NCBI GenBank assembly: GCA_002796245.1
Contig: PCWT01000068.1
Location: 1-44,646, forward strand
DNA: 44,646 nt
Origin: Gammaproteobacteria bacterium CG11_big_fil_rev_8_21_14_0_20_46_22
Lineage (GTDB): Bacteria > Pseudomonadota > Gammaproteobacteria > UBA12402
Direction: 5' to 3'
The notes beneath the pieces are model-generated. The model did no database searches. It saw nothing but the letters and a program-made list of their open reading frames with translations, and was not told the DNA's origin. Position 1 is the first letter of the stretch; the number at the start of each line of letters is the position of its first letter. Positions 22,827 to 44,646 of the stretch are shown in pieces. The position numbers and the translations under genes are program-made.

Positions 22827-22883
22827 GCCCCATCCCATTTTATAAAGCTATATGACCAAAAATATCGGTTATAGAGATAAAAA

Positions 22884-23225: not shown

Positions 23226-23665
23226 GCGTCATTATCCATCTTTTTACCCCAATAACGGCTTTCTTCCGATTTTGACATGGAATACGCTTGCCAATAGGTT
23301 TGGCAGTTTTCACCACTGGTTGGGTTATTATGGCAAGCACGATAAGCATTTTTTGCGAGTGTCGTTTTTGCTTTAATTTGTTGTTTCCAAAAATCGTACC
23401 AATTAACGCCTTTTAGCTTACCATTATCATCCCATGTGGGCTGACTCTGTCCCAACCAAGCTAACGCCTCACTATCACTCACATTCCAAGCATTTTTGAT
23501 GCTTTTTTTAGAGCCTGTTGCAGTCGAGACCGGTGCTGTTGGTTTTTGTCCACTAATGTTAGAAAGCCCATTGTTTATTTTACCCAGATCAGTATTTAAC
23601 TGTTGGCAACCACATAACAAAGCAAAAACTGATACGATTCCTATAAAGCTCGCTGATTTCATCAT
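23222..23665 (-). CDS. Putative lipoprotein of the transfer cluster
   Basis: The product is 147 residues. The N-terminus MMKSASFIGIVSVFALLCGCQQLN is a lipoprotein signal with lipobox LLCGC, cysteine at residue 20. The mature part is hydrophilic, with a W-rich stretch (WLGQSQPTWDDNGKLKGVNWYDFWKQQ) and two cysteines (CHNNPTSGENC) that could form a disulphide. It could act like TrbH/VirB7 or the exclusion lipoprotein TrbK, neither of which is otherwise present, but it does not clearly resemble either. GGGAG precedes the start. It shares an ATGA junction with the next gene. Confidence 0.72.
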   Translation of the reverse strand: MMKSASFIGIVSVFALLCGCQQLNTDLGKINNGLSNISGQKPTAPVSTATGSKKSIKNAWNVSDSEALAWLGQSQPTWDDNGKLKGVNWYDFWKQQIKAKTTLAKNAYRACHNNPTSGENCQTYWQAYSMSKSEESRYWGKKMDNDA

Positions 23666-23686
23666 TTCAATATCTCCCTGAAGGGT

Positions 23687-24367: not shown

Positions 24368-24377
24368 TGCAATGCTC

Positions 24378-25652: not shown

Positions 25653-25662
25653 GGTGCGTCTC

Positions 25663-26622: not shown

Positions 26623-27443
26623 TATTTTACTCCTGTCCAAGAAACATTAGTGACGTAAAACCCAAATGGATTGTTTTGAAGAATAAATTCGTTTTGTGAT
26701 GGCGCATCCCATTTAAAATCAAATTCGCCAACAAATTGCTTCTGATACAACGTTTGACCGGATTGACTGTCTCTCGATATTTCTGTCCAGCCCACTTGGA
26801 ATGCTTGATTCGGTAATTGGTTAACATAGTTAACGTTAATTGAAATCGTTCGCTTATTAACAACCGTGTAGGGGTCGCGCTCTTTAAAAAAGTTATCAAG
26901 TTCTGTTGTAGCTGCGCCTTTTGTTAATGCGTAGGCTTTCTTTTGATTGTTTTTTTCAATATACCCATCGACACTAACGGCGCGTGCGCTTTTTACAAAA
27001 TCTTGTATGAAGAATTTGGCAAGCGCGGGCTTCATGGTGTCAAAATTACTGCTACTAGCTGCGCCCGTATAAATCACTTGCCCATTTTGCACTTGCACAA
27101 CATAAGGAATGTATTTTGATTGGATGCCAATATAAATAATGCCGAGAATACATAGGCCGACTAATAGCAACAGCCTAAAATTTAGTTTCCTGGATTTTTC
27201 ATAGCGCTCTTCCGCATTGCCGTAAATATCCAACCAAAGCGCCCTGCTCTGCAAATAAGGATTATTTTCAATTTCACCCGAATGCTGTTTTATAAAACGC
27301 TCTGCTGCACTGATTTTTTGCGACTCTGAAGACGCTGCTTTTTCCACCTCATCCGATTCACCCAATCTTTTAAATTTTAATTTTGAGATCAGTGGCAAAG
27401 CCTTTAGTTTATCCCAGTTTACTTTTTTAAATTTAATGGCCAT
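26622..27443 (-). CDS. trbF: TrbF (VirB8-like) inner-membrane scaffold
   Basis: The product is 273 residues. A basic cytoplasmic tail is followed by one transmembrane helix (about residues 88-107, FRLLLLVGLCILGIIYIGI), and then the periplasmic VirB8 domain with YIPYVVQVQNGQVIYTG and KRTISINVNYVNQLPNQAFQVGWTE. VirB8 nucleates assembly of the channel. The N-terminal 85 residues are long and charged. The stop overlaps the trbG start in TAATG. It sits in the order trbL-trbF-trbG-trbI, as in Ti and RP4 type systems. Confidence 0.92.
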   Translation of the reverse strand: MAIKFKKVNWDKLKALPLISKLKFKRLGESDEVEKAASSESQKISAAERFIKQHSGEIENNPYLQSRALWLDIYGNAEERYEKSRKLNFRLLLLVGLCILGIIYIGIQSKYIPYVVQVQNGQVIYTGAASSSNFDTMKPALAKFFIQDFVKSARAVSVDGYIEKNNQKKAYALTKGAATTELDNFFKERDPYTVVNKRTISINVNYVNQLPNQAFQVGWTEISRDSQSGQTLYQKQFVGEFDFKWDAPSQNEFILQNNPFGFYVTNVSWTGVK

Positions 27444-27455
27444 ACGTTTTCCTCA

Positions 27456-28640
27456 TTACTTTTTAACCTGATTTGATTTAAAATCTCCACCAGGGCTACT
27501 GGCTTTGCTCGCTTGCGCTGCCTGTTGCGACATGCGCTGCGACATCTTAGCGTTGAATTTTTGACCAAAACTCATGTGTTGATTGGCTTTCATGACGCTG
27601 TCTTTGATAGAGCCGCCCGCTGCTGCGCCGACATTCATTGCGGCACGACCTGCCGCATGATGCCCTCTCATACCACTTTGCACGCCTTGAGCAACTGACC
27701 CAACAGACTGAGCCACCCCTTTACCCACCTGACCGAGTGCTTGTGCGCCACCGGCACCCATCGTTGCTGCGGTCATTGCGGCTCTTGCGCCAACGCCACC
27801 CGCTGTCATTGCAGCACCAACAGCCGCGTCACCGTAACTTCTAAAGCCACCGACACCGGATAATCCTGCAATAAAAGGCGGTACATTTTTAACGACCATG
27901 TAAAAGACGATCACGGCTGCCATGACCACCAAGAATGGTTTTAATTCGTGTTGCTGTGCGGCCTGCCCAATAAGGTTTGCCCAATCCTGTCCGATCTGAA
28001 CGCCAACACCCATGATGAGATAAAACACCAACAATTGAAGTCCAATACCGATCACCGCTTTAAAATAATTCATTGCAATGGGGCGCACGACTTCATTCGC
28101 GCCAAACGCAAACATTAATCCACTTAACGAAATCAAGACGTAGCTTTTAATTAAAATAATGGCAATTTCAGCCGCTAGTAATGCGTAAAGAATGATGATG
28201 GCAATGAGAATCGCGCAAGCTAGCAAACTACCAAAGGGGTGCGTTATCCAACCCCAATGGCTAAAGTTATCCATGATGGCAAAGCCAATAGAAACGCCCT
28301 GCCCCATCACAGAGGATGGAGTTAACGAAGTGATCCCCGATGACGTTGTGCCAATGGAAATAAATCCATTAATTAACTGTGGCATCCATGAACCGCCAAA
28401 TAATACTAAGGTGTAAAAAACTGAAATGGTAAAAAATATTTGGATGGTTTTAACCGTTGCTTCAATGGGATCACCTTTAAACATCAGCCAAACGGCACTA
28501 ATCACAATCTGAAGGCCAGCCAAATAATAAAAAAGCCCTTTTGCTAGCTCTTCTATACGCGTGTAATCGTGTTGCAAGGCCTGCAAAAATTCTTGCAGAA
28601 CTTGATCTAAAACACCTGTGCTTACCGCCGCGTGTAACAT
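27456..28640 (-). CDS. trbL: TrbL (VirB6-like) polytopic membrane protein
   Basis: The product is 394 residues, started at the ATG just after the trbJ stop (TAATATG). At least five hydrophobic segments lie between about residues 25 and 250 (ISAVWLMF, IQIFFTISVFYTLVLFG, LLACAILIAIIILYALLAAEIAIIL, LISLSGLMFAFGA, FLVVMAAVIVFYMVV). A C-terminal Ala/Gly/Met-rich low-complexity region follows (about residues 262-394). This is the TrbL plan: an inner-membrane pore plus a disordered tail. The tail has repeated ARAAMT/AGGVG elements. Confidence 0.92.
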   Translation of the reverse strand: MLHAAVSTGVLDQVLQEFLQALQHDYTRIEELAKGLFYYLAGLQIVISAVWLMFKGDPIEATVKTIQIFFTISVFYTLVLFGGSWMPQLINGFISIGTTSSGITSLTPSSVMGQGVSIGFAIMDNFSHWGWITHPFGSLLACAILIAIIILYALLAAEIAIILIKSYVLISLSGLMFAFGANEVVRPIAMNYFKAVIGIGLQLLVFYLIMGVGVQIGQDWANLIGQAAQQHELKPFLVVMAAVIVFYMVVKNVPPFIAGLSGVGGFRSYGDAAVGAAMTAGGVGARAAMTAATMGAGGAQALGQVGKGVAQSVGSVAQGVQSGMRGHHAAGRAAMNVGAAAGGSIKDSVMKANQHMSFGQKFNAKMSQRMSQQAAQASKASSPGGDFKSNQVKK

Positions 28641-28641
28641 A

Positions 28642-29415
28642 TTATTCCCCGTTTCCAAATTGCGGAATCAATCCGAATTGGGATTTACCTTGATACTGGG
28701 GATAAGCAGAACCCGACGTTTTTACCACCGCATCCACCGATTGTTGTTTAGCCGCGTCTTTTTGTGCTTGATAGGCATAGTATTCCGCCTGTGCATTTGC
28801 CTGTGCCATCATCGTCGCTTTAAGCTTTTGCATTTGCGCAATTTGTTCTGCCGCAATTTCATTACCGACTTGCAATGCTTGCATACGCCCTTGTGGTGTC
28901 TTGGCTTTTTGCGCTAATAGTTGATCCAGTGCTTCTTCTTGTGATTGCTGCTCATAACTCGCGTTGATTTGATCTATGACACCGTTCATGGTGTCTTGAT
29001 TCGTTTGCACCCATTTTTGATACTGGCCAGAATAATCGGTTGTTCCCCCTTGTTCGCCGGTATAACCTGGAAATTGTTTTTTAAATTGTTGATCGACGTT
29101 TGATGCAGAATAAGCTAATGCATTGCCCTGCTGCATCGCACTCGCTAATTGGTTTAACGATTGCCTCGCATTATCCCAATTCTGACCGGATAAGGTTTTT
29201 AAGTTCGTGGCCTGATACTGTATGGCTTGAAGCTGGTTTTTGATTTGTTGTACTTGCTGTATCACCATGGTGGCTGTTTTTAGGGAGGTCACTAAATTCA
29301 GTTTTGCATTCACTGCATCTATCACAGGTAGCATCGCAAAAGCAGACTGGTAAACAGTCAAACTTAATAACGATACAACCATAAATACTTTACGTAACTT
29401 ATGAAGTTTAAGCAT
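28642..29415 (-). CDS. trbJ: TrbJ (VirB5-like) minor pilus and adhesion protein
   Basis: The product is 257 residues. A signal peptide (MLKLHKLRKVFMVVSLLSLTVYQSAFA) is cleaved after about residue 27. The mature part is almost wholly alpha-helical and Gln-rich, with MVIQQVQQIKNQLQAIQYQATNLKTL and a long second helical section (GRMQALQVGNEIAAEQIAQMQKL). This is the TrbJ signature. It is exported and expected at the pilus tip. I chose the ATG at 29415, which overlaps the trbE end by 8 bp, over a start at 29448. It is followed by trbL with no gap. Confidence 0.92.
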   Translation of the reverse strand: MLKLHKLRKVFMVVSLLSLTVYQSAFAMLPVIDAVNAKLNLVTSLKTATMVIQQVQQIKNQLQAIQYQATNLKTLSGQNWDNARQSLNQLASAMQQGNALAYSASNVDQQFKKQFPGYTGEQGGTTDYSGQYQKWVQTNQDTMNGVIDQINASYEQQSQEEALDQLLAQKAKTPQGRMQALQVGNEIAAEQIAQMQKLKATMMAQANAQAEYYAYQAQKDAAKQQSVDAVVKTSGSAYPQYQGKSQFGLIPQFGNGE

Positions 29416-31921
29416 GATTATCTCCTTGGAAATAACATTTCTCCGCAAATTCTCGCCACTGCGTTAAGCCTTTATAATCCAACCAATCCAGTATCCAACG
29501 CTCATCATCATCTCGGTGTGTTTCTTTAAATTTTTGTACGTCTTTTTCTTTGGATACCCCGAGAAACGCCAACGATAAGGGATCAAGATCAAGCTGTATT
29601 AAACGGTTTCCAATGGGTGAGGTGAGGTAATAATCGCGTTTAGGAACGGCCAAACCAATCATGGCCACTTGCTGTTCGTTTAAACCAAATTCCAAATATT
29701 TTTTAGCCACTGATTCGTCATAAATATTATGATTGGGTAAATAGAATTTTGTGGGGCACGATTCTTTAATCGTGCCGCTAATTCGTGAGGAGGTAACGTG
29801 TTCAATATTTTGTGAAATAAAGCCTACCGCCACATTAAACTTACGTAACGTCAACAACCAATCTTCCAACATATTTTCAAATATTTTGTGTCGTAAGAAC
29901 GACCACGCTTCTTCAAGAATTAAAATCGTTGGTTTTCGATCTTGAAATAATCGTGTCAGACGATGAAAAATAGCGCGCACAATCGGAATGTAAATGGATT
30001 CCGGTAATTTTAATAACTCGCCCATTTCCATGCCGATCACAGAATTATTGCCTAGTCGATCATTTAACCCATTCATCATTTTTTGAATAGCGCCACTGTT
30101 AAAACTGTCAATGGCTTGTCGGATTTCTTGATCTTGAATATGGAGCAAATCAAGCCGAAGATTTTCTTTACCGCTTTTTACTAATGCCCGCAAAGACTGA
30201 TCGACTTTTTCTTTTTTATCCGGCGTAATGTCCACTTTTTGTAACTCGCAAATTTCACATAGCCATTCCACTAAAAATGTCATTTCTGCTTCAAACTCTG
30301 CTGTGCCTTCTTGTAGACTCGCCAACATCGCTAGCGGCGCAAACTGAGCACCACCATAGACATCAAAATAATCGCCGCCCAGCGCTTTAAGCCAAACACG
30401 ATTTGAATAATCTTTATCAAACACAACGATACGAGAACGTGGATATTTTCTAAATTGACAACCAATTAATCCCAGTAGCGTTGATTTACCCGTACCCGTT
30501 GGGCCAATAATCATGAAGTGCCCTACATCACCAACGTGCAAATTCAGACGAAACGTGCGAGAACCTTTGGTACGCACATAAATTAAAGCGGGCGAACCTT
30601 TAGGATAAAAAGGACATGGCGCGGTTCGACTCCCCTGCCACACAGAAGACGTAGGAATAGCATGAGACACATAAATACTATCCACCAAAGGCTTACGAAT
30701 ATTATAACAACCGTGGCCTGGTATTGATCCTAAATAAGCTTCAGTGGCATTGAATGCTTCATCGCGGATTTTAAAATTCAGTGTCTCGATCGTTTTGGTA
30801 ATTTGATTAGCAGCAGCTTCTAGTGTAGTGCGATCTTCATTCATTAAAATAACAACCGATGTCATAAACCCATAGCGGGCCTCGCCTGAACTATTCTCTT
30901 TAATCGCTTGGGAGGTTTGATATTTGCGTTCTTCTGCGGCTTCATCAATTTGTGGCGCAATCCCCATCGCCATTTTGATTGAACCAATTAATCCAATGGC
31001 TTTATTCGACCATCGGCTTTTCAGTGATTTTAAATACTTCTCAGCCGTTAACTTTGATAACGGGATAAAGCGTGATGACCAACGATACTCAAAACCTAAA
31101 TAATTAAGTTCATCTAAAATGGCGGGATACGTGTACTCTGGTAAATCATCAATAAAAAGCACCTTAATCCATTTTTTACCAATTTTCGGGATCACGCCGC
31201 CAATAAAATGTTCTGATGAGAGATAGGAATCCAGAAAATAGCCTATTTTAGGTGCTTTTAATTGTTGCTGTTTCCCCGTGATGGTCTGATGTAGAAAAGT
31301 AACCAATGCATCCTTTCTTAACCGCTGTAAATGATTTAATTCGACGTTTTCTAGTCCTTTAATAGAATCATTGTCAACACCAGAACTTGCGTTGGTGATT
31401 TTTTGAAACTGAGTTAAAAATCGCTGTACCGTATTTTCAAAATAGGCATATTCATCATCGATACTTTTGGTTTTTTCCTCTGAATCTACAATAAGCTTAG
31501 ATAATTTTTTCCCGAGTTGATCGGTGGGAACATAACTAATAGACAAATAACAAGTGGACTTAAAAAACGTTTGATCCTGCTCGAAATTAAATCGCCTTGC
31601 GTCATCAATTAAAGCGGATACGGTATCTGGAAACGTTTGTGCATCCGCATATTTTTTATCTTCCTCACTTAAAAGATTGGTTTCAAACATCCAACCATCA
31701 TCAAGTAATCCTAATGCCTGAAACACAGCATAGGCATTGGCATCTAAAATTGCACCGGTGGAAGAATCCACGTCTTGAGCGATATAGCTAAAATGGGCTG
31801 AAAATGCCGCATCCTTATGAATAACCGTCTTCTCATTAAATAAATACCCAAAACTTAACAGTTCTGGCAGTTCTCGGTTTCGCCGTAATTTCAAGAAATT
31901 TTCATGGTGTCTGTTTTTCAT
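29408..31921 (-). CDS. trbE: TrbE (VirB4-like) transport ATPase
   Basis: The product is 837 residues, from the ATG at 31921, with AAGG 10 bp upstream. The N-terminal CagE_TrbE_VirB domain (about residues 170-390) precedes the ATPase with Walker A IIGPTGTGKSTLLGLIG and Walker B PTILILEEAW, and the VAVGFISQNIEHVTSS motif late in the domain. VirB4 powers pilus assembly and substrate transfer. All key motifs are intact. The gene starts 4 bp inside the trbD end. No separate trbE paralogue exists in the window. Confidence 0.95.
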   Translation of the reverse strand: MKNRHHENFLKLRRNRELPELLSFGYLFNEKTVIHKDAAFSAHFSYIAQDVDSSTGAILDANAYAVFQALGLLDDGWMFETNLLSEEDKKYADAQTFPDTVSALIDDARRFNFEQDQTFFKSTCYLSISYVPTDQLGKKLSKLIVDSEEKTKSIDDEYAYFENTVQRFLTQFQKITNASSGVDNDSIKGLENVELNHLQRLRKDALVTFLHQTITGKQQQLKAPKIGYFLDSYLSSEHFIGGVIPKIGKKWIKVLFIDDLPEYTYPAILDELNYLGFEYRWSSRFIPLSKLTAEKYLKSLKSRWSNKAIGLIGSIKMAMGIAPQIDEAAEERKYQTSQAIKENSSGEARYGFMTSVVILMNEDRTTLEAAANQITKTIETLNFKIRDEAFNATEAYLGSIPGHGCYNIRKPLVDSIYVSHAIPTSSVWQGSRTAPCPFYPKGSPALIYVRTKGSRTFRLNLHVGDVGHFMIIGPTGTGKSTLLGLIGCQFRKYPRSRIVVFDKDYSNRVWLKALGGDYFDVYGGAQFAPLAMLASLQEGTAEFEAEMTFLVEWLCEICELQKVDITPDKKEKVDQSLRALVKSGKENLRLDLLHIQDQEIRQAIDSFNSGAIQKMMNGLNDRLGNNSVIGMEMGELLKLPESIYIPIVRAIFHRLTRLFQDRKPTILILEEAWSFLRHKIFENMLEDWLLTLRKFNVAVGFISQNIEHVTSSRISGTIKESCPTKFYLPNHNIYDESVAKKYLEFGLNEQQVAMIGLAVPKRDYYLTSPIGNRLIQLDLDPLSLAFLGVSKEKDVQKFKETHRDDDERWILDWLDYKGLTQWREFAEKCYFQGDNHA

Positions 31922-31925
31922 ATCA

Positions 31926-32267
31926 TTAAAACCTTGCAAATAAACTTAGCGGAACTGTTTGCACTTTTCGTGTTTTTTGTAGGTTTCCCGCATAGCCTTG
32001 TGCTAAATAAAAACGGTTTTGCACTAAGAAACGGCTGTTTTTTCTAAATACGGCGACGCCTTGTGGGTCACGTTTTGCAGAAAAGCGCAGCAGGTAGATA
32101 GTGCCAATAAACCCTGCTATGACTATCAACGTAGGCCAATGCGGTAATACGCCCATCAACGCCCAGCCCCAAAAAAAGCAAGAGACAATCACCAAACTGC
32201 GCTCAGCACCCATGATTAAAATGGTGTCCGATAGCGCCCGATTAGTTTGTCTTGCTGTTCCACGCAT
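31926..32267 (-). CDS. trbD: TrbD (VirB3-like) membrane protein
   Basis: The product is 113 residues. It starts MRGTARQTNRALSDTILIMGAERSLVI, the conserved VirB3 N-terminus, with two adjacent membrane segments at about residues 25-60 (LVIVSCFFWGWALMG and TLIVIAGFIGTIYLL). VirB3 works with VirB4 at the inner membrane. It is a little longer than RP4 TrbD owing to a basic C-terminal tail (FRKNSRFLVQNRFYLAQGYAG). It is tightly packed between trbC (13 bp) and trbE (overlap). Confidence 0.92.
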   Translation of the reverse strand: MRGTARQTNRALSDTILIMGAERSLVIVSCFFWGWALMGVLPHWPTLIVIAGFIGTIYLLRFSAKRDPQGVAVFRKNSRFLVQNRFYLAQGYAGNLQKTRKVQTVPLSLFARF

Positions 32268-32280
32268 CGCTTTTCCCCCT

Positions 32281-32592
32281 TTAAATAACTAATGCACCAC
32301 TAAAACTAAAGAACGTGGATAACAGCGTCACCGCGCCAAAAGCAATAGAAATACCCAAAGCGGCTTGTACAAATTTCTTAGCGCCACCTTGTAAATCCAG
32401 AAATGCCATTGACAGACCCGCAATAACAATGGCAATACCAGCGCAAGCATAAGCAACTGGCCCATCAAGCGAATCCATGATTTTCGTCAGTGTTTGCGCC
32501 CAAGGGTATTGCGCAACGGTTGAGGCTTGTGCTGATGCGGCAAAAAGCAAACACATCAACGCGCCTGATAGTTTATATAAACGTCTTTTCAT
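32281..32592 (-). CDS. trbC: TrbC (VirB2-like) pilin precursor
   Basis: The product is 103 residues. A signal peptide (MKRRLYKLSGALMCLLFAASAQA) is followed by a pilin core with two hydrophobic segments (PVAYACAGIAIVIAGLSMAFLD and VQAALGISIAFGAVTLLSTFF). TrbC is the major pilus subunit. The TraF peptidase at 5302-5898 should trim its C-terminus (end FSFSGALVI) and cyclise it. AGGAG precedes the ATG. It follows trbB by 17 bp. Confidence 0.92.
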   Translation of the reverse strand: MKRRLYKLSGALMCLLFAASAQASTVAQYPWAQTLTKIMDSLDGPVAYACAGIAIVIAGLSMAFLDLQGGAKKFVQAALGISIAFGAVTLLSTFFSFSGALVI

Positions 32593-32609
32593 AAGAACTC
32601 TCCTATTTG

Positions 32610-33572
32610 TTAAGCGACTTGAGTAAACTCAAATTTTTTACCGTTAAATCCCTTAATCGCTGAAATGGATTTAACTTCCCGACCTGCTTTATGCTTGGAA
32701 TTTCGTACCACGTTAATTAAAACATCGACTGTTTCCGCGACGAGATCATTCGGCGGTGGCACATTCGCCTCTTGCGCAAGTGAAATGAGCCGTAACACCG
32801 AACTTTCTGCGGAATTAGCGTGGATCGTCGCAATACCACCAGGACACCCTGTATTCCAAGACTTTAATAAATCTAGCGCCGCCGCATCACGTACTTCACC
32901 CACCAAAATACGATCGGGTCGTGAGCGCATCGCTATTTTAAGTAACGTGGTCATCGATACATTCTGGCTCGTCACCATAGACAATACATTAGGCATTTCG
33001 CATTTAAGTTCAGCCGTATCCTCTAATACCAGTACGCGCTGTGATCGATCACAAATCTCACTCATTTTTTTAACAATCGCATTGGAAAGTGTCGTTTTAC
33101 CCGTACCAGGGCCACCAGATACGATAATATTTTTACGCGCTAGCAATGCGTCACAAATAAAATCAAATTGTGCTTTATTAATGATTTTTTTCTTCAAATA
33201 GTCTTCTAGTGGATAAACAAATTTTGCGGGTTTTCTGATGGTAAATGAGGCGCGATCACTGATTGGTGCAATCGTCCCTTCTAAACGTTCGCGATTAAAG
33301 GGCAGCAAGGTTTCAAGATAAGGATTTTCAAAATTCAGAAATAAATCTTGTAGTCTTGCAAGCTGCAATAAAAAGTTTTGTGCCTCAAACTCCCCTATTT
33401 CAGAATCCTTAAACATCCCTTTTGATCTTGACTCAAACCAGACAGAACCATCAGGATTTGCCATGATCTCGGTAATGTCATCATCTTGCAGTGCTGCACA
33501 GATACGGCTCCCTAACATTTTTTTGAGAAAGTCAATTTTAAGTTCAGCCTGTTCTTGGTTCTTAGCCATCAT
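32610..33572 (-). CDS. trbB: TrbB (VirB11-like) secretion ATPase
   Basis: The product is 320 residues. The N-terminal domain (residues about 1-130) holds RLEGTIAPISDRASFTIRKP. The RecA-like domain follows with Walker A IIVSGGPGTGKTTLSNAIV, the Asp box RVLVLEDTAELKC, Walker B RPDRILVGEVRDAAALDLL and the His box GGIATIHANS. VirB11 forms a hexamer at the base of the channel and switches between pilus assembly and DNA transfer. It is the first trb gene of the operon, preceded by the SSB-like gene. Confidence 0.94.
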   Translation of the reverse strand: MMAKNQEQAELKIDFLKKMLGSRICAALQDDDITEIMANPDGSVWFESRSKGMFKDSEIGEFEAQNFLLQLARLQDLFLNFENPYLETLLPFNRERLEGTIAPISDRASFTIRKPAKFVYPLEDYLKKKIINKAQFDFICDALLARKNIIVSGGPGTGKTTLSNAIVKKMSEICDRSQRVLVLEDTAELKCEMPNVLSMVTSQNVSMTTLLKIAMRSRPDRILVGEVRDAAALDLLKSWNTGCPGGIATIHANSAESSVLRLISLAQEANVPPPNDLVAETVDVLINVVRNSKHKAGREVKSISAIKGFNGKKFEFTQVA

Positions 33573-33577
33573 AATCT

Positions 33578-33973
33578 CTATTGCTGTTTTTCTATTTCAG
33601 CGTTGCTTTCATTTTTTTCAATGCTATCCATTGCCTCAACGTCGCCTGTATGAAATTTTGGGATGGAATAAACGTATTTTTTACCATCTGCGTCTGTTAC
33701 TTCTTCTTTTTCAGTTTTAACTTTGGCGGTTAGCCTTAAACGTAGCCCTGGCCGCGCATAGTCTTGAATAAATTGTGCTGCATTACCCCAAACCACTACA
33801 GATAACCACTCGGTATATTCTTCCGATTGTCCCGCGTCATTTTTTTGTATTTCATCGACAGCTAATACGATATTGGCAACCAATTTGTCGTTATTCGTTT
33901 TTCGGATGACTGGTATTTCTTTTAAACGGCCAATCACTTCTAAGCCAGCGCCAGTACCTTTACGTGTCTTCAT
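33578..33973 (-). CDS. Single-stranded DNA-binding-like protein of the transfer operon
   Basis: The product is 131 residues. LEVIGRLKEIPVIRKTNNDKLVANIVLAVDEIQ, then EEYTEWLSVVVWGNAAQFIQDYARPGLRLRLTAKVKTEKEEV, follows the OB-fold pattern of SSB proteins (a vG.L...p.....v..f.lA....., W..vv.WG..A.....Y...G.r l.v.G.l). The tail ends in EIEKQQ and lacks the acidic DDDIPF tip. It would coat single-stranded plasmid DNA or regulate. Its start shares an ATGA with the upstream small gene, and trbB follows 5 bp later. Confidence 0.78.
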   Translation of the reverse strand: MKTRKGTGAGLEVIGRLKEIPVIRKTNNDKLVANIVLAVDEIQKNDAGQSEEYTEWLSVVVWGNAAQFIQDYARPGLRLRLTAKVKTEKEEVTDADGKKYVYSIPKFHTGDVEAMDSIEKNESNAEIEKQQ

Positions 33974-34162: not shown

Positions 34163-34456
34163 CTATAAAATGGGCTGGGTATAGCGCCTTGATGCGAGCA
34201 CACTCAAGACGCACCCAGAACCCCCGCTGTTTGGAGGATTGGTCGCGGCTACCAACATCACAGGGTGGCAATGTTGTCCTGCTTTGAATAAAAAATGGGG
34301 CACGCAAAATAAGGCGACTTTCAACGCTCTTGTTCCCATTTTTACGAGAAAGCCACATGGCGTCGGCGTGCCCCAGGTGACGCACGTTTGTGAAATTTTG
34401 TATTTTCCTACGACGCATAACATCCACCCTACTCGTTTATCCATTCTGGAATACAT
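34163..34456 (-). CDS. Doubtful reading frame upstream of the trb operon
   Basis: A 97-codon frame (MYSRMDKRVGWMLC...) occupies the gap between the RHH gene and the small gene at 33970. Its composition is Cys/Pro/Gly-rich and unlike the neighbouring genes, and another frame of similar length overlaps it. The C-terminal part (AATNPPNSGGSGCVLSVLASRRYTQP) resembles short phage/plasmid frames annotated as Ash-like, but I am not sure. It may instead be structured untranslated leader of the operon. Confidence 0.3.
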   Translation of the reverse strand: MYSRMDKRVGWMLCVVGKYKISQTCVTWGTPTPCGFLVKMGTRALKVALFCVPHFLFKAGQHCHPVMLVAATNPPNSGGSGCVLSVLASRRYTQPIL

Positions 34457-34635
34457 TCAATGAACTCATGCTCTTCCAAGCTATGAGCAAGCCTTACAAT
34501 TAATTCCGCTGTTAAGTTTCTGCCTGATTTTTTCGAGCTTGTTTGTAATTTTTTCTTAAGCGCTTTGGGTACTCGCGCAAATATACGGCTATCTCGGCTT
34601 TCTAAGTTGCTATTTATCAGCGACTTCTTTGACAT
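34429..34635 (-). CDS. Arc-type ribbon-helix-helix regulator
   Basis: The product is 68 residues. SRIFARVPKALKKKLQTSSKKSGRNLTAELIVRLAHSLEE is an Arc-like RHH: one beta strand (FARVP) with helices containing KSGRNLTAELIVRL, as in the Arc/MetJ superfamily. It binds DNA as a dimer of dimers. It stands at the head of the minus-strand transfer cluster and is the most likely repressor of it. Its promoter lies in the 34636-35043 gap, back to back with the S24-type repressor. Confidence 0.83.
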   Translation of the reverse strand: MSKKSLINSNLESRDSRIFARVPKALKKKLQTSSKKSGRNLTAELIVRLAHSLEEHEFIECIPEWINE

Positions 34636-35043
34636 TCTCTGCTCCTATTTGATTGTCATGTAGACCAAAAAAGCTGTCTCCAATGGTCAAATTTTTTTGG
34701 GTATTAGGATTGAGAATCGCGGTGATTTTATGAGGTGTATAGAGATTTATAACAAGCCATGTGCTACTATCACACCTGCAAAATCAGTTTAGACGCTGCT
34801 TTCTGCAATTCTCGCTTGCTAGGAGGTTGTCGCTTCCTGGCAAGCCCTAAAATTCCCTTCGTTCCCCTTTTAAACTGCTAAGCCTTTTAATCTATCGTTA
34901 ATTATACTGTGACAAATTATTTTGTCAATAGGACAAAACTGTTTTACATATAGCAGTTTTACTTTGTCCTTGTCAACATTTTTTGCTAAATTAAATAGTA
35001 TTATGGGTCAACCAGAGCAAAGTGCTCCTATTATCAATGAGTT
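34636..35043. promoter_or_regulatory. Divergent control region between the trb operon and the cargo operon
   Basis: This is 408 bp without a gene. Near the trb side GACCAAAAAA (about 34662) faces TTTTTTTGG with GACCA/TGGTC arms. On the cargo side the GACAAA/TTTGTC palindrome cluster at 34910-34975 lies 70-130 bp before the S24 gene. The middle part, about 34760-34880, has no feature that I can name. Confidence 0.75.
34910..34975. promoter_or_regulatory. Nested GACAAA/TTTGTC operator cluster
   Basis: TGACAAA (34910-34916) and TTTGTCA (34921-34927) form a perfect palindrome with a 4-bp centre. GGACAAA (34931-34937) and TTTGTCC (34963-34969) form a second palindrome, with AAAACTG/CAGTTTT (34935-34941, 34954-34960) inside it, and TTGTCA follows at 34970-34975. 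Five half-sites in 66 bp suggest cooperative binding by the S24-type repressor encoded next to it. Confidence 0.75.
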
Positions 35044-35697
35044 ATGGAATTAATGAGTACAGAAAAACTCAATACGCTTTCAGAGAGGCTATCGTATGCT
35101 CTGGATAGGCTTGGTATTTCACAGGCAGAACTTGCCAGAAGAATCAAAGTGAAGCGGCAGGCCGTGCAATACCTCTGCACGAGCGGTACGAACAAGTCAA
35201 AATTTGCTTACGACATCGCTGAGGCGCTGGGCATTAGCGTGGACTGGTTGGTCGCGAGCAAGGGTGAAATGATGTTAAAAGAATCCCCTGAACAGCGCCT
35301 TCTATCAGAACAAAAAGTAGTGCCAATTTTAGATTGGAACCAAATTAATGCCTGGCTTAGCAATAAGCTGGATAAATTTACACTCGCTAACTGGACGACT
35401 ATACATGAAAAATTGAGTGACAGCTCCTATGCTCTAAAACTGAAAGATAATTCCATGTTTCCTCGATTCGATTCAGAAACAGTGATAGTGATCGATCCAA
35501 CCATCTCCCCTACCCCACCCTGCTTTGTTGTGGCCTATATCAAACGAATGCATGATTTTGTGTTCAGACGATTAACCAAAGAAAATGGGCAATTGATGTT
35601 ATATGCCTATAACGAAACTGGGTACAAACAACTCCCTTTGCTCAAGGAGGATCAAGTATTGGGTTGTCTGGTGGAGGCGAAATGGTCGGTGCTTTAA
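35044..35697 (+). CDS. XRE/S24 LexA-CI-like repressor
   Basis: The product is 217 residues. A helix-turn-helix (about residues 15-68: ALDRLGISQAELARRIKVKRQAVQYL) is joined to a peptidase S24 domain. The nucleophile motif DNSMFPRF has Ser137. The position that normally carries the catalytic Lys (E.TFKRL in relatives) reads FVFRRL, Arg175, and no Ala-Gly cleavage pair is visible in the hinge. Self-cleavage is therefore doubtful and the protein may respond to something other than RecA. It heads the cargo operon and has a palindrome cluster 70-130 bp upstream. Confidence 0.88.
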   Translation: MELMSTEKLNTLSERLSYALDRLGISQAELARRIKVKRQAVQYLCTSGTNKSKFAYDIAEALGISVDWLVASKGEMMLKESPEQRLLSEQKVVPILDWNQINAWLSNKLDKFTLANWTTIHEKLSDSSYALKLKDNSMFPRFDSETVIVIDPTISPTPPCFVVAYIKRMHDFVFRRLTKENGQLMLYAYNETGYKQLPLLKEDQVLGCLVEAKWSVL

Positions 35698-35718
35698 TTT
35701 TATTAGGAGGCGGTAGCT

Positions 35719-36105
35719 ATGTTTAAAAAACTTAAATTATTTTTGCTGTGGCTCAGTTACAAAACGGCAGAAATGCGAAATGTATACAGCCACAAAGCAG
35801 TTGGTCAGCGCCAACGAAAAGACGGCATTACATTAATCATGTATAGCATTTTAGGTAAACGTGATTTATACGACGTGCCTATCAGTGAACTCATGGACAA
35901 TAAAGCCTTGCTGGAACGATTTCACCCTTGTCAGACAGCAAAATTTGGCGCTATTGCGCTAGGCGATGTACTTTTTTCTCTGCCACAAGATCAGCGAGAA
36001 AATCGCTATAAAAATATTAAAGATCAGATGCTCCCGCCGGATGATGAAAATAATCAACCAGAACCGGAAGACAAAGAATCTGGTTCCGAGCAATCTGAAA
36101 AATAA
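35719..36105 (+). CDS. Hypothetical protein of the cargo operon
   Basis: The product is 128 residues. A basic, hydrophobic N-terminus (MFKKLKLFLLWLSYKTAEMRN) could be a membrane anchor. The middle includes MYSILGKRDLYDVPISELMDNKALLERFHPCQTAKFGAIALGDVLFSLP. The tail is a low-complexity acidic EPEDKESGSEQSEK stretch. I do not recognise the family. It starts 21 bp after the repressor, with GGAGG upstream, and ends 12 bp before the transporter, so it belongs to the same operon. Confidence 0.7.
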   Translation: MFKKLKLFLLWLSYKTAEMRNVYSHKAVGQRQRKDGITLIMYSILGKRDLYDVPISELMDNKALLERFHPCQTAKFGAIALGDVLFSLPQDQRENRYKNIKDQMLPPDDENNQPEPEDKESGSEQSEK

Positions 36106-36117
36106 CTAGGTGTCATT

Positions 36118-36795
36118 ATGAGCACAGCCAAAACCATAGACTTCAAATTTTCTAAAGCCCAGATATTATTAACCACTTTGTTTCTGGCAACCAATTTTAC
36201 CTATTTTACAATGGCACCGCGCATATTGCATATTTTTAACTTATATGAGCCAGGCGGCATTCTCATATTTCCGTTCACCTTTTTATTGTCGGATGTCATC
36301 ACAGAAGTTTACTCCTACAAATACTCACGATTTCTCATTTGGTGCGTCATATTAACGCTGGGGATATTCACTCTGTTCGCCTGGATATCAATGATGATAC
36401 CGACAGCCGTTGTGAATTACGGGTATGTTAATGTATTTGATAATTACCCTAAATTATACATGGGCGTTGCCATTGCAACATTTTTTAGCTTTTTTATTAA
36501 CAATTACATTATTTCAAAGCTGAAAATAAAGATGGACGGTAAATTGTTTTGGCTAAGATCAATTATGTCTACCTCGGTTGGACATGCTGTTTTCTCAGCT
36601 ACCTGGGTCATCATTTTTCACTGGCATGAGATCGGCTCTTTAGCTTTGCTGAAGCTTATTTTAGATATGTATCTCTGGAAAATGACCTTTGAGATTATAG
36701 CAACGCCTGTTGCCGCTTTTGTCTCTCGCTGGCTCAAGAAAAAAGAATGTGATGTTTACGATACAAACACCAATTTTAATCCATTCAAGTTATAA
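36118..36795 (+). CDS. VUT-family (YhhQ-like) membrane transporter
   Basis: The product is 225 residues with about six membrane segments. LLSDVITEVYSYKYSRFLIW is the VUT hallmark (D.i.E.YG.k.ar), and FWLRSIMSTSVGHAVFSATWVIIF matches the second conserved block. VUT proteins include the queuosine-precursor transporter YhhQ; which ligand this one moves cannot be read from the sequence. It lies 12 bp after the unknown gene and 11 bp before the malonyl-CoA synthetase gene, so it may bring in a substrate of that pathway, or be a coincidental partner. Confidence 0.88.
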   Translation: MSTAKTIDFKFSKAQILLTTLFLATNFTYFTMAPRILHIFNLYEPGGILIFPFTFLLSDVITEVYSYKYSRFLIWCVILTLGIFTLFAWISMMIPTAVVNYGYVNVFDNYPKLYMGVAIATFFSFFINNYIISKLKIKMDGKLFWLRSIMSTSVGHAVFSATWVIIFHWHEIGSLALLKLILDMYLWKMTFEIIATPVAAFVSRWLKKKECDVYDTNTNFNPFKL

Positions 36796-36806
36796 GAGGA
36801 TTCCCT

Positions 36807-38318
36807 ATGAACGCAAACTTATATAGCCACTTTATGTTTGATACAAAAAAACAAAATCCCCTTATTCTGCTGGACGATGGAAAAATATTTACCTATGAAG
36901 ATGTCGATCAAAAAGTAGCGCAATACTGCAATTTCTTTTCAAGCATTGAATTACAGTTAGGCGATAGGATTGTGCAACAAACCGAGAAATGCTTAGATGC
37001 ATTATGTGTTTATTTGGCTAGCTTACGGTTTGGGGCTATTTATATCCCTTTAAACCCATCATTTCAAAGCGAAGAACTTACTTATTTTATTGAAGACGCG
37101 GAGCCATCTTTATTCGTTTGCTCTCTTGAAAAAGAAAAAACAGTTGTCGAACTTATCAGAGCAAAAGGAATCCCCCTTATCTTAGAAACGCTTGCAGAAA
37201 ACGGCAGCGGCTCAATACAGAAAAAGGTCAGTAATTTTGGCATTCATTTTGACACTGTAGAACAATGCGAAAATGATATCGCTTGTATTTTATATACGTC
37301 AGGCACAACCGGACAACCTAAAGGCGCGATGCTTTCCCATAAAAACTTACTTGCTAATGGCAGAGCACTCAAAGACTGTTGGGGATTCACGGAAAGCGAC
37401 ACCCTGCTCCATATGCTGCCTATTTTTCATTGTCATGGTTTGTTTTTTTCTTGCCATTGCGTTTTACTAAGTGGTGCTAGCACCATCTTCTTACCAAAAC
37501 TTGATATTGACCTTGCAATTAAACATTTACCTAATAGTACGGTCTTAATGGGTGTTCCTACTTACTATACGCGGTTATTGGGCGATGGGCGATTTACCCC
37601 TACCCTAACGAAGAACGTGCGATTATTTATTTCTGGTTCAGCACCGCTACTTGAAAAAACATTTTATGAATTTGAAGAAAAATTTGGCCAACGAATACTT
37701 GAGCGTTATGGCATGACAGAAACAGGAATTAATACGTCAAACGCATTACACGGAGATCGCATTCCTGGTTCCGTAGGCTTGCCATTACCTATTACTCAAC
37801 TACGAATAGTGGATGATGAAGATAACGAGACAAAAGGTAATGATGCAGGGCATATACAAGTAAAAGGCGATAATGTCTTTGGCGGTTATTGGAAAAAAGA
37901 GGACAAAATAAAGGAATCATTCACTCAAGACGGTTATTTCCGCACGGGTGATGTTGGGACTAAAGCTAACAATGACTACATTTCTATTGTTGGCAGAGCT
38001 AAGGATATGATTATTACAGGCGGTATTAACGTTTATCCTAAAGAAATTGAAACCCTAATTAATAAAATGGACGGTGTTAAAGAATCGGCTGTGGTTGGCT
38101 TACCTCACTCTGATTTTGGTGAGGCAGTTACTGCTATGATTGTATTAAAACCTGGCTCTACAGTTCAAGCTAGCGATGTTATTTCTAGCATCAAGAAATC
38201 ATTAGCCAACTATAAAGTCCCTAAAAAAGTACTTTTCATTGATGATTTACCGAGAAATGCTATGGGTAAAATACAAAAAAACGTGCTCAGAAGCCAATAC
38301 AATGATTTGTTTTCGTAA
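36807..38318 (+). CDS. matB: Malonyl-CoA synthetase (MatB-like acyl-AMP ligase)
   Basis: The product is 503 residues. The AMP P-loop YTSGTTGQPKG is at 163-173 and the A5 motif ERYGMTET at 299-306. HMLPIFHCHGLF, VLMGVPTYYTRLL, VRLFISGSAPLL and DNVFGGYWKKEDK are the MatB-specific blocks; the Arg before LFISGSAP (R272) is a malonate-contact position in the family. The C-terminus carries YFRTGDVG, IIVGRAKDMIITGGINVYPKEIE and the catalytic lysine in PRNAMGKIQK. The predicted reaction is malonate, CoA and ATP to malonyl-CoA. It is the last gene of the operon. A plasmid copy suggests a role in malonate detoxification or in a specialised fatty acid or polyketide product; the sequence gives no further hint. 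Confidence 0.9.
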   Translation: MNANLYSHFMFDTKKQNPLILLDDGKIFTYEDVDQKVAQYCNFFSSIELQLGDRIVQQTEKCLDALCVYLASLRFGAIYIPLNPSFQSEELTYFIEDAEPSLFVCSLEKEKTVVELIRAKGIPLILETLAENGSGSIQKKVSNFGIHFDTVEQCENDIACILYTSGTTGQPKGAMLSHKNLLANGRALKDCWGFTESDTLLHMLPIFHCHGLFFSCHCVLLSGASTIFLPKLDIDLAIKHLPNSTVLMGVPTYYTRLLGDGRFTPTLTKNVRLFISGSAPLLEKTFYEFEEKFGQRILERYGMTETGINTSNALHGDRIPGSVGLPLPITQLRIVDDEDNETKGNDAGHIQVKGDNVFGGYWKKEDKIKESFTQDGYFRTGDVGTKANNDYISIVGRAKDMIITGGINVYPKEIETLINKMDGVKESAVVGLPHSDFGEAVTAMIVLKPGSTVQASDVISSIKKSLANYKVPKKVLFIDDLPRNAMGKIQKNVLRSQYNDLFS

Positions 38319-38319
38319 T

Positions 38320-38354
38320 GTAATTAAAGTTAATAAGTTATTAACTTTAATTAC
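38320..38354. terminator. 35-bp palindrome between convergent genes
   Basis: GTAATTAAAGTTAATAA (38320-38336) and its exact reverse complement (38338-38354) are separated by one base. It starts right after the matB stop and covers the stop of the ParB-like gene. It may be a bidirectional terminator, though it has no GC stem, or a protein-binding site resembling 40954-40980. Confidence 0.55.
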
Positions 38355-38716
38355 CGTTTTGGCGGTCGGCCCATTGGCATTTTTTCTAGCTTGTCCGAGA
38401 GCTTTTCTAGCTCATTTCCTGATAATTCAGAAAGAACAAGAAACCCCAATCTAACAACTTCGCTTTCCGCTAAAACCACCTTCCTGTCAAGGGCCTTGTC
38501 TTTGATCTTGTCAATTAACTCAAGCTCTGTTTCAGGGATAGAAAAGGTTTTGCGCACTACCCTAGCAAAGGACTTTGGTTCAGTTTTCCCAGAGGAATCA
38601 TTAACGCCAAGAGCTTCGTCGGCTTGATTGAATCGAGAGGCGGCCTCTCTTTCCACCTCTTCCTTATCTCTCGGCGCTATCTTTTTCTTGAAATTGCTCA
38701 AATCATACTTACCCAT
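38351..38716 (-). CDS. parB: Plasmid partition partner protein (ParB-like, RHH type)
   Basis: The product is 121 residues from MGKYDLSNFKKKIAPRD. The C-terminal half (FARVVRKTFSIPETELELIDKIKDKALDRKVVLAESEVVRLGFLVLSEL) has an RHH-like pattern: a short strand (KTFSIP) with two helices. The N-terminus is charged and may interact with ParA. It overlaps the parA stop by 8 bp, the typical layout of type Ib partition systems in which the second gene is a small RHH centromere-binding protein rather than a true ParB. The ParA contact and centromere are not shown by the sequence. Confidence 0.75.
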   Translation of the reverse strand: MGKYDLSNFKKKIAPRDKEEVEREAASRFNQADEALGVNDSSGKTEPKSFARVVRKTFSIPETELELIDKIKDKALDRKVVLAESEVVRLGFLVLSELSGNELEKLSDKLEKMPMGRPPKR

Positions 38717-39413
38717 TAATTTCTTCCTTTTCTTTGATCTGGGAATCAACTAGCGGCTTATCCAAAAACGCTAGCAATTCGTCTGTAAAAGACTCTACTT
38801 CATCGATAGCATCCTTAGCTTTGCTTCTTAGCGAATGAACTGTGGAACCAGTTAAAAAAGTCTCAGGATAGTATGTTCTTTTGTGTAGTCGAATTTTTGA
38901 CTGGGGCATATTAAAATCTGGCAACAAGTCCAAAACCTCATTAGTAAGGTTTGTTTTAGCCTCTACTCTATTCAGCACAAGCAAGCTTCGTAGGTTTGGA
39001 TTCATAACCTGAGCATCTTCGATTGTGTCTCGAATCCTAACGGCGGCAGACATGTTTAAACCGTCTGGAATAAACGGTACCAATGCTAAATCAGCAACAA
39101 GTAATACGCTTTTTGATATAGGAGAATCTGCTGCTGGAGGGCAATCAACAAAAATGTATTCATAGTCATCGTAATATTTCTTGATTTCTTGGTGAATTTT
39201 TCTACCAGCGGCTGCTAAGTTAAAGACTCTGGCAGGAAATGGTGTCCCTTCAGGTGCCATTGATGCCCACTCAACGGCGGAATTCTGATCATCTCCATCT
39301 ATAATTAAAACTTTCTTCTTCCTCAAGGCTAGCGTCCCACCGCTTTGCATAGTAACCGTTGTTTTGCCTGACCCGCCCTTTTGGTTGACAACGGCTATAA
39401 TTTTTGCTGCCAT
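38709..39413 (-). CDS. parA: ParA-family partition ATPase
   Basis: The product is 234 residues from MAAKIIAVVNQ, started at the ATG with AAGGAG just before it. The deviant Walker A KGGSGKTT (residues 12-19), A' VLIIDGDDQNS and Walker B YIFVDCPP are present. There is no N-terminal helix-turn-helix, so it is a small, type Ib ParA. It moves the plasmid through the cell on the nucleoid with its RHH partner. The operator candidate at 39470-39487 lies 57 bp upstream. Confidence 0.93.
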   Translation of the reverse strand: MAAKIIAVVNQKGGSGKTTVTMQSGGTLALRKKKVLIIDGDDQNSAVEWASMAPEGTPFPARVFNLAAAGRKIHQEIKKYYDDYEYIFVDCPPAADSPISKSVLLVADLALVPFIPDGLNMSAAVRIRDTIEDAQVMNPNLRSLLVLNRVEAKTNLTNEVLDLLPDFNMPQSKIRLHKRTYYPETFLTGSTVHSLRSKAKDAIDEVESFTDELLAFLDKPLVDSQIKEKEEING

Positions 39414-42429: not shown

Positions 42430-42924
42430 ATGCGCCGATTGAAACCCGTTTTCAGGTGCATGAATGTTGAGAAGGAGCAGTTTAAGCAATCAAGATGCCT
42501 CTTAACGATTAGTGTAGGGCAGGAAGTCCACGAACGCGAGCATTTTGAAGCAACGATTGAACTGGTCAATGCTTCTTTTGATTCATGCATCATGTTAATT
42601 GATGACAGTTTACAGCGTCATACAATGGCGTTGGAATCTGAAAAAGATGCCGATAGCTTTTATCGAGGTTCGATAGAGGCTGGGGATCAATGGCTGGAGC
42701 GTAATGCAATGTACTATGGAAAGCTCGCGATACTCAGTAAAATTGTCCGATGGGATCAATGGTTGCTGCATCCCAATTTCCAAGCACAACAAAACGAATT
42801 AAAAGCGCTGATGGATTCTGACGATGCTTATCATAGCGCTTTTACCAATACGGGGTTGCATGGAAGAATCTCCAAAACCGGCCGGTTTTTAATTTACCCC
42901 GTGCAATCACGCAGCCTTACGTAG
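42430..42924 (+). pseudogene. tRNA-dependent cyclodipeptide synthase, 3' end removed by the transposon
   Basis: From the ATG at 42430, with GGAGG 8 bp before it, the frame reads as a cyclodipeptide synthase of the XYP type: CLLTISVGQEVH with the catalytic Ser28 and Gln31 in the variable position, FEATIELVNASFDSCIMLIDDSLQRHTMALESEKDADSFYRG, and MYYGKLAILSKIVRWDQWLLHPNF. The family is about 220-240 residues. Here about 140 codons remain before the left inverted repeat at 42852; the last 24 codons to the stop at 42924 are transposon sequence. The Y-P half of the active site is lost, so it is dead. These enzymes join two aminoacyl-tRNAs into a cyclic dipeptide. Recognition of the family is from sequence pattern only. 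Confidence 0.8.
42852..42894 (+). repeat. Left terminal inverted repeat of the Tn3-family transposon
   Basis: It begins GGGGTTGCATGG and runs through AAAACCGGCCGGTTTT to AATT, pairing with 2698-2740 at 40 of 43 bases. The 5 bases outside are AATAC, which do not match TAAAG outside the right end, so no target-site duplication is present. It interrupts the cyclodipeptide synthase reading frame. Confidence 0.92.
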
Positions 42925-44646
42925 TTTTTTCTCTAAAAGCTTAATGAGCTTATTAAAATCAACCCCCTTTCTCCGATCTTTAAAGTGATAACGACCAGTA
43001 AAAATGATGTGCTGCCAAGCAACTGGCGATATCTTGCTCAATATTGTTTTTGCTTCTTTCTCACCAAAGGTTGCACACAACCGTTGATACAATTTATCAA
43101 GAATCATTGCATTATATGCAATGACGCAGTTTGACACCAATCTTGATGCCTGGACGCTGGTAGCATTTGAAATAATTTTTCTTCCCTTGAAAGCACCGTG
43201 AAATACTTTTCGAATCATGCGATGAAATTGGTGATAGGATTCTGTGCGATTACGCGCAGTTTTTATCACCTTTCGTTTACCTTCATCATCAATTAAATTC
43301 AGCACATGTGTGCTTTTAAAAATTTTATTGTACTCCCAAAACGCTGCCTGCAATCGACTGTAGCGTTTGTGTGATGCTAATTTTCTAACAATAACCGCTT
43401 GCGTGTTTTGTTGCAGTAAAAGTGATAATAAAATTCGAATAATGCCGCGTTTTTCTGATTTTATGAGGGCCTTGTTAATTTTATCGGACGGTGTTATTAA
43501 TCCATGATACTGATCCGGATCATTAACGGAAAAAAGTTTTTCAGCTTCCATACGAATATTGTTAATACCTGGAATAAATTCAACATCAATTGAATCAAGT
43601 GTCACAAAACTTGTTTGATTAATGGAGTGGCCATCACCTGTTACCATATCAATAGGGATATTTGTTTTATTGTTGTATATCACGTCGTACAGATGGTGAC
43701 TTTCGTGTTCGTTCGGACCAATAACTTTTGCATTGATTGAAATGTGATTTGCGGTGAGTGAATAGATGGATATTCCCTTACACGATCCGAAGTATTTGGA
43801 GGAAAAGCGTGATTGAATGGTGTGATAACTTGTTGCGTATTTTTGACCATCTACATCTGAAACAACAGTGTTTTCTATTAGATCCCACGCACGTGATACT
43901 GATAACTCATGAATAAAATTACTAAATGCATCGTTGATTAATTTTAGATTTCCAACGTACATAAAATTTTCATCAATTGTGAGAAGGTGGTTGTATCCGA
44001 TATTTGACATCTGTGACATTTTTTCTGTGCCAAAACCAAACGCATCGGATAATATGCACGCAATCAATGCTAATGGACTTGGGTGTTTGTGTTTTACATA
44101 GCGATCTTTTTGACTTTCAAATAATTTCCAAACATCAAGATAATCCCCCATGAATTTAAAAACATCGGCAATATCTCTTTTTGGCAGCCCGTCAAAAAAT
44201 GTGGATTTTTCAGTTTCATCGGTATCGTATGTTAATTTCCACGTGATATTTCCTTTATCGTCAGTTTCAAGCTCGATACTTTTATTGGTTCCATCTGCAA
44301 TATTTTTATTGACTTGAATCCATGCGTTTTCTAAGTCAGATAATGCTTGATCTAAACGCTCATCACAATACACAGGAATTTTTTTATACCCATATTCTTC
44401 GCAAATTTCTACCGCATTATCAACAAACTCATCTGGTACTAAATCATAATCTAAATCGCAATATGAAACGCTGTCATTACAAAATAAACGACCTCTATCG
44501 AGTTGGTGATACATTTTGTCATAAACATAAAATTCAAATCGCGCAGTGTTTATTTCTTCTGAGTTATCAGTGGATTTTAATAATTCAGATGCACTTTTTG
44601 GGAGCTTCTTAATTAACGCATCAGGCAATGATTTTGATAAATCGGG
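42907..44646 (-). CDS. tnpA: Tn3-family transposase TnpA, catalytic C-terminal part
   Basis: This is the second part of the 1017-residue transposase; bases 44557-44646 duplicate 1-90. It carries the DDE residues of Tn3 transposases: D704 in VDGQKY, D776 in VTGDGHS and E907 in RTESYH (numbering of the joined protein), followed by the conserved C-terminal block around NCVIAYNAMILDKL. The spacing resembles D689/D765/E881 of Tn3. A TTG codon at 44628 could be mistaken for a start, but the upstream frame is plainly conserved transposase, so it is internal. The stop at 42907 lies 12 bp inside the left inverted repeat, so the gene ends at the very edge of the element. No frameshift or missing catalytic residue is seen, so the element is probably active. 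Confidence 0.95.
   Translation of the reverse strand, partial: PDLSKSLPDALIKKLPKSASELLKSTDNSEEINTARFEFYVYDKMYHQLDRGRLFCNDSVSYCDLDYDLVPDEFVDNAVEICEEYGYKKIPVYCDERLDQALSDLENAWIQVNKNIADGTNKSIELETDDKGNITWKLTYDTDETEKSTFFDGLPKRDIADVFKFMGDYLDVWKLFESQKDRYVKHKHPSPLALIACILSDAFGFGTEKMSQMSNIGYNHLLTIDENFMYVGNLKLINDAFSNFIHELSVSRAWDLIENTVVSDVDGQKYATSYHTIQSRFSSKYFGSCKGISIYSLTANHISINAKVIGPNEHESHHLYDVIYNNKTNIPIDMVTGDGHSINQTSFVTLDSIDVEFIPGINNIRMEAEKLFSVNDPDQYHGLITPSDKINKALIKSEKRGIIRILLSLLLQQNTQAVIVRKLASHKRYSRLQAAFWEYNKIFKSTHVLNLIDDEGKRKVIKTARNRTESYHQFHRMIRKVFHGAFKGRKIISNATSVQASRLVSNCVIAYNAMILDKLYQRLCATFGEKEAKTILSKISPVAWQHIIFTGRYHFKDRRKGVDFNKLIKLLEKKLRKAA
44557..44646 (+). repeat. 90-bp terminal redundancy identical to 1-90
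   Basis: The last 90 bases repeat the first 90 exactly, beginning TTCTGAGTTATCAG. Joining them restores a continuous 1017-codon transposase frame. The best reading is the untrimmed overlap of a circular assembly, giving a plasmid of 44,556 bp. Confidence 0.96.

Follow-up and report, generated by a model that had tools for sequence, protein, structure and literature searches.

A recurrent S24-P2-VUT gene module with an exchangeable enzyme gene on a gammaproteobacterial plasmid

We analyzed contig PCWT01000068.1 of Gammaproteobacteria bacterium CG11_big_fil_rev_8_21_14_0_20_46_22 (44,646 nucleotides, hereafter the window), which carries a four-gene operon encoding an S24/lambda-CI-like helix-turn-helix (HTH) regulator (S24), a small protein that we call P2, a VUT-family membrane protein and the malonyl-CoA synthetase MatB. 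Our analysis identified S24-P2-VUT as a recurrent module of which the window operon is one copy; this trio is the conserved unit, and the malonate specifics are local cargo. Judging from sequence, we give about even odds (a probability close to 0.5) to the interpretation that the trio is a mobile regulatory and transport module with MatB as exchangeable cargo, acting as a SetR-like, SOS-independent switch of transfer and cargo genes that is tied to a small molecule.

The four open reading frames (ORFs) lie on the plus strand and encode S24 (217 amino acids, 35044-35697; Pfam Peptidase_S24 with HTH_3/Phage_CI_repr), P2 (128 amino acids, 35719-36105; recognized from homologues beside VUT and S24 genes), VUT (225 amino acids, 36118-36795; PF02592 (Vut_1) and TIGR00697) and MatB (503 amino acids, 36807-38318; PRK07514 and alignment with 4FUQ). 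The gaps between them are 21, 12 and 11 bp, as an earlier note on this DNA had given them, and good ribosome-binding sites are present at the start codons of P2 and MatB; the layout is that of a single predicted operon. An AT-rich inverted repeat read from the sequence at about 38320-38353, between MatB and a convergent gene (38351-38749), is the probable end of the operon; automated terminator scoring gave no terminator at this repeat. The Pfam and NCBIfam matches also bear out the note's identification of a phage-like repressor, a VUT protein and a malonyl-CoA synthetase.

Legionella-like gammaproteobacteria carry the trio or two of its three genes, as do plasmids of Legionella, Piscirickettsia, Serratia, Cedecea and others, and the order S24, P2, VUT, enzyme is repeated at the loci read. 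A scan of genome contigs with the P2 alignment returned 13 loci, 12 of which hold a P2 gene by profile, and each of these 12 genes is closely preceded by an S24 regulator gene on its own strand; among 23 P2-seeded loci, S24 was found within 2.5 kb at 20 and VUT within 3.5 kb at 13, locus counts that depend on our own gene calls and thresholds. P2 is present in 18 of 369 evenly drawn gammaproteobacterial genomes, and the trio was found again at new loci (L141, L147, L151, L152 and L159). Used alone and blind to P2 and VUT, the S24 profile found matches in 45 of 57 Legionellaceae genomes; when 35 of these Legionellaceae loci were read over about 1.5 kb, 28 had P2 and/or VUT (17 both, 6 P2 only, 5 VUT only) and 7 had neither. 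Our literature search, whose coverage left most subscription papers outside, found no account of such a module, which appears to be undescribed, and nothing relevant on VUT or YhhQ together with plasmids or conjugation.

The fourth gene, by contrast with the trio, is swapped. Elsewhere its place is taken by a methylthioadenosine/S-adenosylhomocysteine (MTA/SAH) nucleosidase, a nitrilase, a methyltransferase, QueC, a phosphoesterase or a flavin mononucleotide (FMN) enzyme. Within the genome to which the window belongs, the enzyme is an MTA/SAH nucleosidase on contig C22 and a carbon-nitrogen hydrolase on C16, and in another genome it is an FMN dehydrogenase or a GNAT protein. The nitrilase version keeps the same four-gene order in two genomes, with enzymes 62% identical, and the fourth gene can therefore be a stable partner. 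The conservation of gene order on which the earlier note had hung its proposal thus holds for the first three genes, and for a nitrilase in fourth place, and fails for MatB; the novelty it saw in the pairing of MatB with VUT lies instead in the trio; on its own, MatB is frequent on the plasmids of rhizobia and Azospirillum. The swapping suggests that the spread of these plasmids is coupled to a small molecule.

The ends of the contig share an exact 90-bp overlap (positions 1-90 equal 44557-44646), which identifies it as a circular plasmid whose redundant end was not trimmed; the true length is about 44,556 bp (about 44.6 kb within a 2.1-Mb genome). Family profiles identified a MobA/L relaxase, a Trb transfer system and a coupling protein, and the plasmid is therefore conjugative, in agreement with the earlier note. 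A TraY-domain protein (34429-34635, minus strand; PF05509, E = 1.4e-4) is encoded divergently from S24, and transfer genes for single-stranded DNA-binding protein (SSB), TrbB, TrbC, TrbE, VirB8/CagX/TrbI and TraG/D follow in the same direction as TraY (20889-33973, minus strand), with which they may be co-transcribed.

Between TraY and S24 lies a cluster of putative operators, whose presence the earlier note had correctly proposed. O1 (GACAAATTATTTTGTC, 34911-34926) is a perfect palindrome with its only exact match in the plasmid at this site; O2 (GACAAAACTGTTTTAC, 34932-34947) is an imperfect relative 21 bp from O1; and O3 (GCAGTTTTACTTTGTC, 34953-34968), 21 bp from O2, is weaker and was placed by eye from its spacing and a TTTGTC half-site. 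A perfect sigma-70 promoter (TTGACA-16-TATAAT, 34901-34928, minus strand, 12/12 matches) faces the TraY/trb genes; its spacer and the greater part of its -35 element lie within O1. On the other strand, a weak promoter-like site (TTGTCA-18-AATAGT, 34970-34999, plus strand, 9/12 matches, not above chance alone) precedes S24. Of Markov sequences of 408 bp, about 0.045% (4.5e-4) would contain a 12/12 promoter, and a second such promoter occurs elsewhere in the plasmid; a perfect 6-4-6 palindrome by itself is no rarity, being expected in 14% of sequences of that length. Operator copies above chance were not found elsewhere in the plasmid. Palindromes together with a tra-facing promoter are also present at loci L113 and L106, and palindromes at L104, L105, L112 and L114, with sequences that differ. 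We infer that the control region is a divergent switch of the lambda/SetR type. Because the operators overlie the perfect promoter that reads towards the transfer genes, S24 is probably a transfer regulator and more than a switch of metabolic cargo; of the earlier claim of a cargo operon under these operators, the operator cluster stands and the restriction of the repressor to its cargo probably does not.

S24 combines an HTH with an S24 domain, as do SetR, LexA and CI repressors, and its family profile matches lambda repressor (3bdn, 7.2e-16), with lambda-CI-like similarity over the whole length. The Ser-Lys dyad of the self-cleaving members is incomplete, as the window regulator keeps the catalytic Ser and has Arg at the Lys position. 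This Arg is present in 30 of 36 S24 relatives, and both Ser and Lys are kept in at most 2 of the 36. RecA-stimulated self-cleavage, and with it release by the SOS response, is therefore unlikely, and another mechanism of release would be needed.

The nearest system by mechanism is SetR of SXT/R391, a 215-amino acid HTH and S24 regulator that is cleaved in the SOS response and controls setCD (PMC4542580). On SXT, several operators separate the SetR promoter from a divergent, stronger one that drives transfer functions, and the putative operators and predicted promoters of the window have a similar layout; the window regulator, however, lacks the catalytic Lys, and its gene precedes those for P2, VUT and an enzyme. 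In host and setting, the closest counterpart is the Legionella PrpA/LvrR-LvrA-LvrB-LvrC set, of which LvrRABC is reported to regulate island excision (PMC3864950; PMC3218107; PMC7811196). In both, an S24-type regulator heads a small gene set beside genes of a type IV secretion system or integrative conjugative element, the window having its regulator beside such a secretion system. However, the fourth gene of LvrRABC is described as a CsrA homologue rather than MatB, and the passages compared here mention no VUT protein or metabolic enzyme. Among the 35 Legionellaceae S24 loci there was no CsrA match; CsrA is found downstream of S24-VUT-P2 at L102.

P2 has no Pfam or NCBIfam match, and a search of viral contigs found no relatives. 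Since the protein is divergent, tblastn against plasmids finds almost nothing and profile searches are required. Members of the family usually have two beta3-alpha units; the window protein is a single-unit form with an acidic tail. An AlphaFold2 model of a two-unit relative (predicted local distance difference test 82.8, predicted TM-score 0.46) contains two beta3-alpha units. In the genome of the window, a P2 homologue adjoins VUT on C22 and is fused to it on C16 (a 434-amino acid P2-VUT ORF). This fusion, together with the frequent pairing of P2 with S24, suggests that P2 links the regulator to the membrane protein. As a side observation, plasmids from Arsenophonus, Cedecea and Serratia (L107, L108 and L109) carry VUT followed by a calcineurin-like phosphoesterase gene and P2, and a phosphoesterase-like gene also precedes P2 on C54 of the window's genome (L093, 10057-11357).

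The window VUT protein scores 103.5 bits against PF02592 (cut-off 27.2) and 51.1 bits against TIGR00697 (cut-off 50.95), a model against which a module relative scores 47.8; it is divergent from canonical YhhQ. The genome of 2.1 Mb holds 12 VUT matches above the Pfam cut-off (contigs C1, C9, C12, C16, C22, C26, C27, C43, C45 and C68), compared with 0-5 in the relatives searched. Many of the 12 copies adjoin a different metabolic enzyme each. Copies without P2 adjoin an oxygenase, an ABM monooxygenase, an RraA-like protein or a glutathione S-transferase, and in a relative an Asp/Glu racemase. The queuosine-precursor transporters of YhhQ/COG1738 (PMC5372724; PMC11130926) belong to the same PF02592 membrane family, but the module VUTs score lower, many end in an NFNPF-like C-terminal tail, fusion or pairing with P2 occurs in several, and their neighbours are mostly not queuosine-related.

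MatB scores 688.9 bits against PRK07514 (malonyl-CoA synthase; curated subfamily cut-off 558) and is full length and colinear with Rhodopseudomonas palustris MatB (4FUQ) over residues 1-502 (511.9 bits). The catalytic Lys in the MGK-QKNVLR stretch, replaced by Ala in 4FUT, is conserved, and the protein is predicted to be a malonyl-CoA synthetase acting on malonate. What sets it apart from the R. palustris enzyme is its position behind S24-P2-VUT on a conjugative plasmid.

The association with transfer genes extends to other plasmids. A tblastn search with VUT found matches on plasmids of Legionella, Piscirickettsia, Serratia, Vibrio, Arsenophonus and others. By annotation and local profiles, S24, VUT and P2 adjoin tra/trb genes on Legionella, Piscirickettsia and Serratia plasmids, L. 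fallonii being one such case, and an HTH-VUT pair lies beside tra/trb genes on plasmids of Vibrio (V. owensii) and Burkholderia glumae. TraY is divergent from S24, as in the window, at L104, L105 and L113 (Legionella plasmids); the L. anisa and F. dumoffii plasmids show this arrangement, and on the L. geestiana plasmid a divergent TraY accompanies S24, VUT, QueC and a methyltransferase. The order on a Serratia marcescens plasmid is TraM-VUT-phosphoesterase-P2-S24-TraY-TraA.

S24-P2 pairs without VUT head clusters of nonribosomal peptide synthetase (NRPS) or polyketide synthase (PKS), AfsA and AvrD genes. AfsA (A-factor hotdog) lies beside S24-P2 at five loci, namely C43 of the same genome (L094, 1105-1863), L125, L126, L127 and L132, of which L126 adjoins tra-like genes. 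An AvrD homologue (201 bits; L123, 8784-9740, bacterium GWF2_41_13) is encoded near an S24-P2 pair with KASIII, acyl carrier protein (ACP) and AMP-ligase genes, whereas NRPS genes adjoin the pairs at L124 and L128, and a PKS gene that on C33 (L092) of the same genome. L129 is also among the loci with NRPS/PKS genes, and the L128 locus adjoins ParA/ParB-like genes. Cargo of this kind supports a general link of S24-P2 with small-molecule metabolism and leaves room for a signalling role.

On the interpretation of the trio as a transfer and cargo switch, S24 would bind the operators that separate its operon from the divergently read transfer genes, repressing the strong TraY/trb promoter and tuning its own, as SetR does on SXT. 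With the cleavage dyad lost, SOS would not release it; release would more likely depend on P2, encoded by the adjacent gene, and on the state of a small molecule, one that VUT would move across the membrane and the downstream enzyme would consume or make. In the window, MatB would turn an imported dicarboxylate (malonate or an analogue) into its CoA thioester and so trap it. DNA binding and transfer repression by S24, a co-regulatory role for P2, import of a related substrate by VUT and malonate as the substrate are all parts that we infer. A bolder extension, which we regard as doubtful, is a new class of small-molecule control on plasmids and chromosomes, in which a non-cleavable CI-type repressor, the tandem-repeat P2 and VUT would read a compound that a swappable enzyme produces or uses up; plasmids differing in their enzymes would then answer to different compounds and switch transfer to match.

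Several points weigh against this interpretation. The loci are mostly best-scoring matches and include near-duplicates, so their fractions should not be read as frequencies in populations, and the loci searched included no further example of S24-P2-VUT-MatB. Chromosomal S24-P2 pairs exist far from transfer genes, and transfer control is thus not the module's general role. Within the control region, several operator-like sites over divergent promoters are visible by sequence, O3 and the plus-strand S24 promoter being weak, and a further promoter may lie in the 225 bp that follow TraY, which makes control reaching the whole trb operon conjectural. Foldseek on the P2 model gave weak chromodomain-like matches only (best E = 0.016), which we do not take as an identification.

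The operon could instead be plain metabolic cargo, with VUT importing malonate or an analogue, MatB activating it for fatty-acid or polyketide synthesis or for detoxification, and S24 controlling its own operon only. The four-gene operon, the full-length, well-scoring MatB and a ketosynthase-ACP polyketide protein on C33 that could use malonyl-CoA all fit this account, which we nevertheless consider unlikely, as the trio carries unrelated enzymes elsewhere and the operators cover the promoter facing the transfer genes. To our knowledge, no VUT protein has been shown to transport malonate. In addition, accA is present in the genome, so that malonyl-CoA is already made and MatB is not its sole source; a role for MatB in replacing a missing malonyl-CoA supply was rejected for the same reason. 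Rather improbable, too, is a diffusible signal, that is, a plasmid-specific molecule made or altered by the cargo enzyme, imported by VUT and read by S24 and P2 to set transfer and cargo expression. The AfsA loci, including C43 and the tra-adjacent L126, and the AvrD and NRPS loci speak for it, but MatB by itself would be an improbable maker of a signal, a receptor domain was not recognized, and the AfsA clusters may make ordinary metabolites and differ from the window locus.

Salvage of queuosine precursors (preQ0, preQ1 or queuine) is suggested by YhhQ, which belongs to the VUT family and is involved in preQ0 transport in E. coli (PMC5372724), by QueC after VUT at L113, by a QueF-like gene after VUT at L116 and by the presence of tgt in the genome. 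Twelve divergent VUT copies in one genome, a window VUT only at the TIGR00697 cut-off and a MatB without a role in the queuosine pathway make this very unlikely. We give hardly any credence to a prophage-type, SOS-inducible repressor with captured neighbours: S24 is lambda-CI-like over its full length, but its catalytic Lys is lost and no phage structural genes are among the identified plasmid genes.

Other features of the plasmid include a 2389-amino acid protein (8082-15251) that joins MobA/L relaxase, RecD-like helicase, Toprim primase and TraI_C domains, an AbiEi-type antitoxin of a type IV toxin-antitoxin system (16774-17574), and a Tn3-family transposase (42907-44628) that is shorter than the family model and matches its C-terminal part.

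S24-P2-VUT is a widespread gene module that gives a context to the P2 family, absent from Pfam and NCBIfam, and it suggests connections, open to experiment, of VUT proteins with the control of conjugation and with specialized metabolism in Legionella-like bacteria. If the link with transfer is true, plasmid spread would respond to an SOS-independent cue, and the swapped enzymes would point to the identity of that cue.

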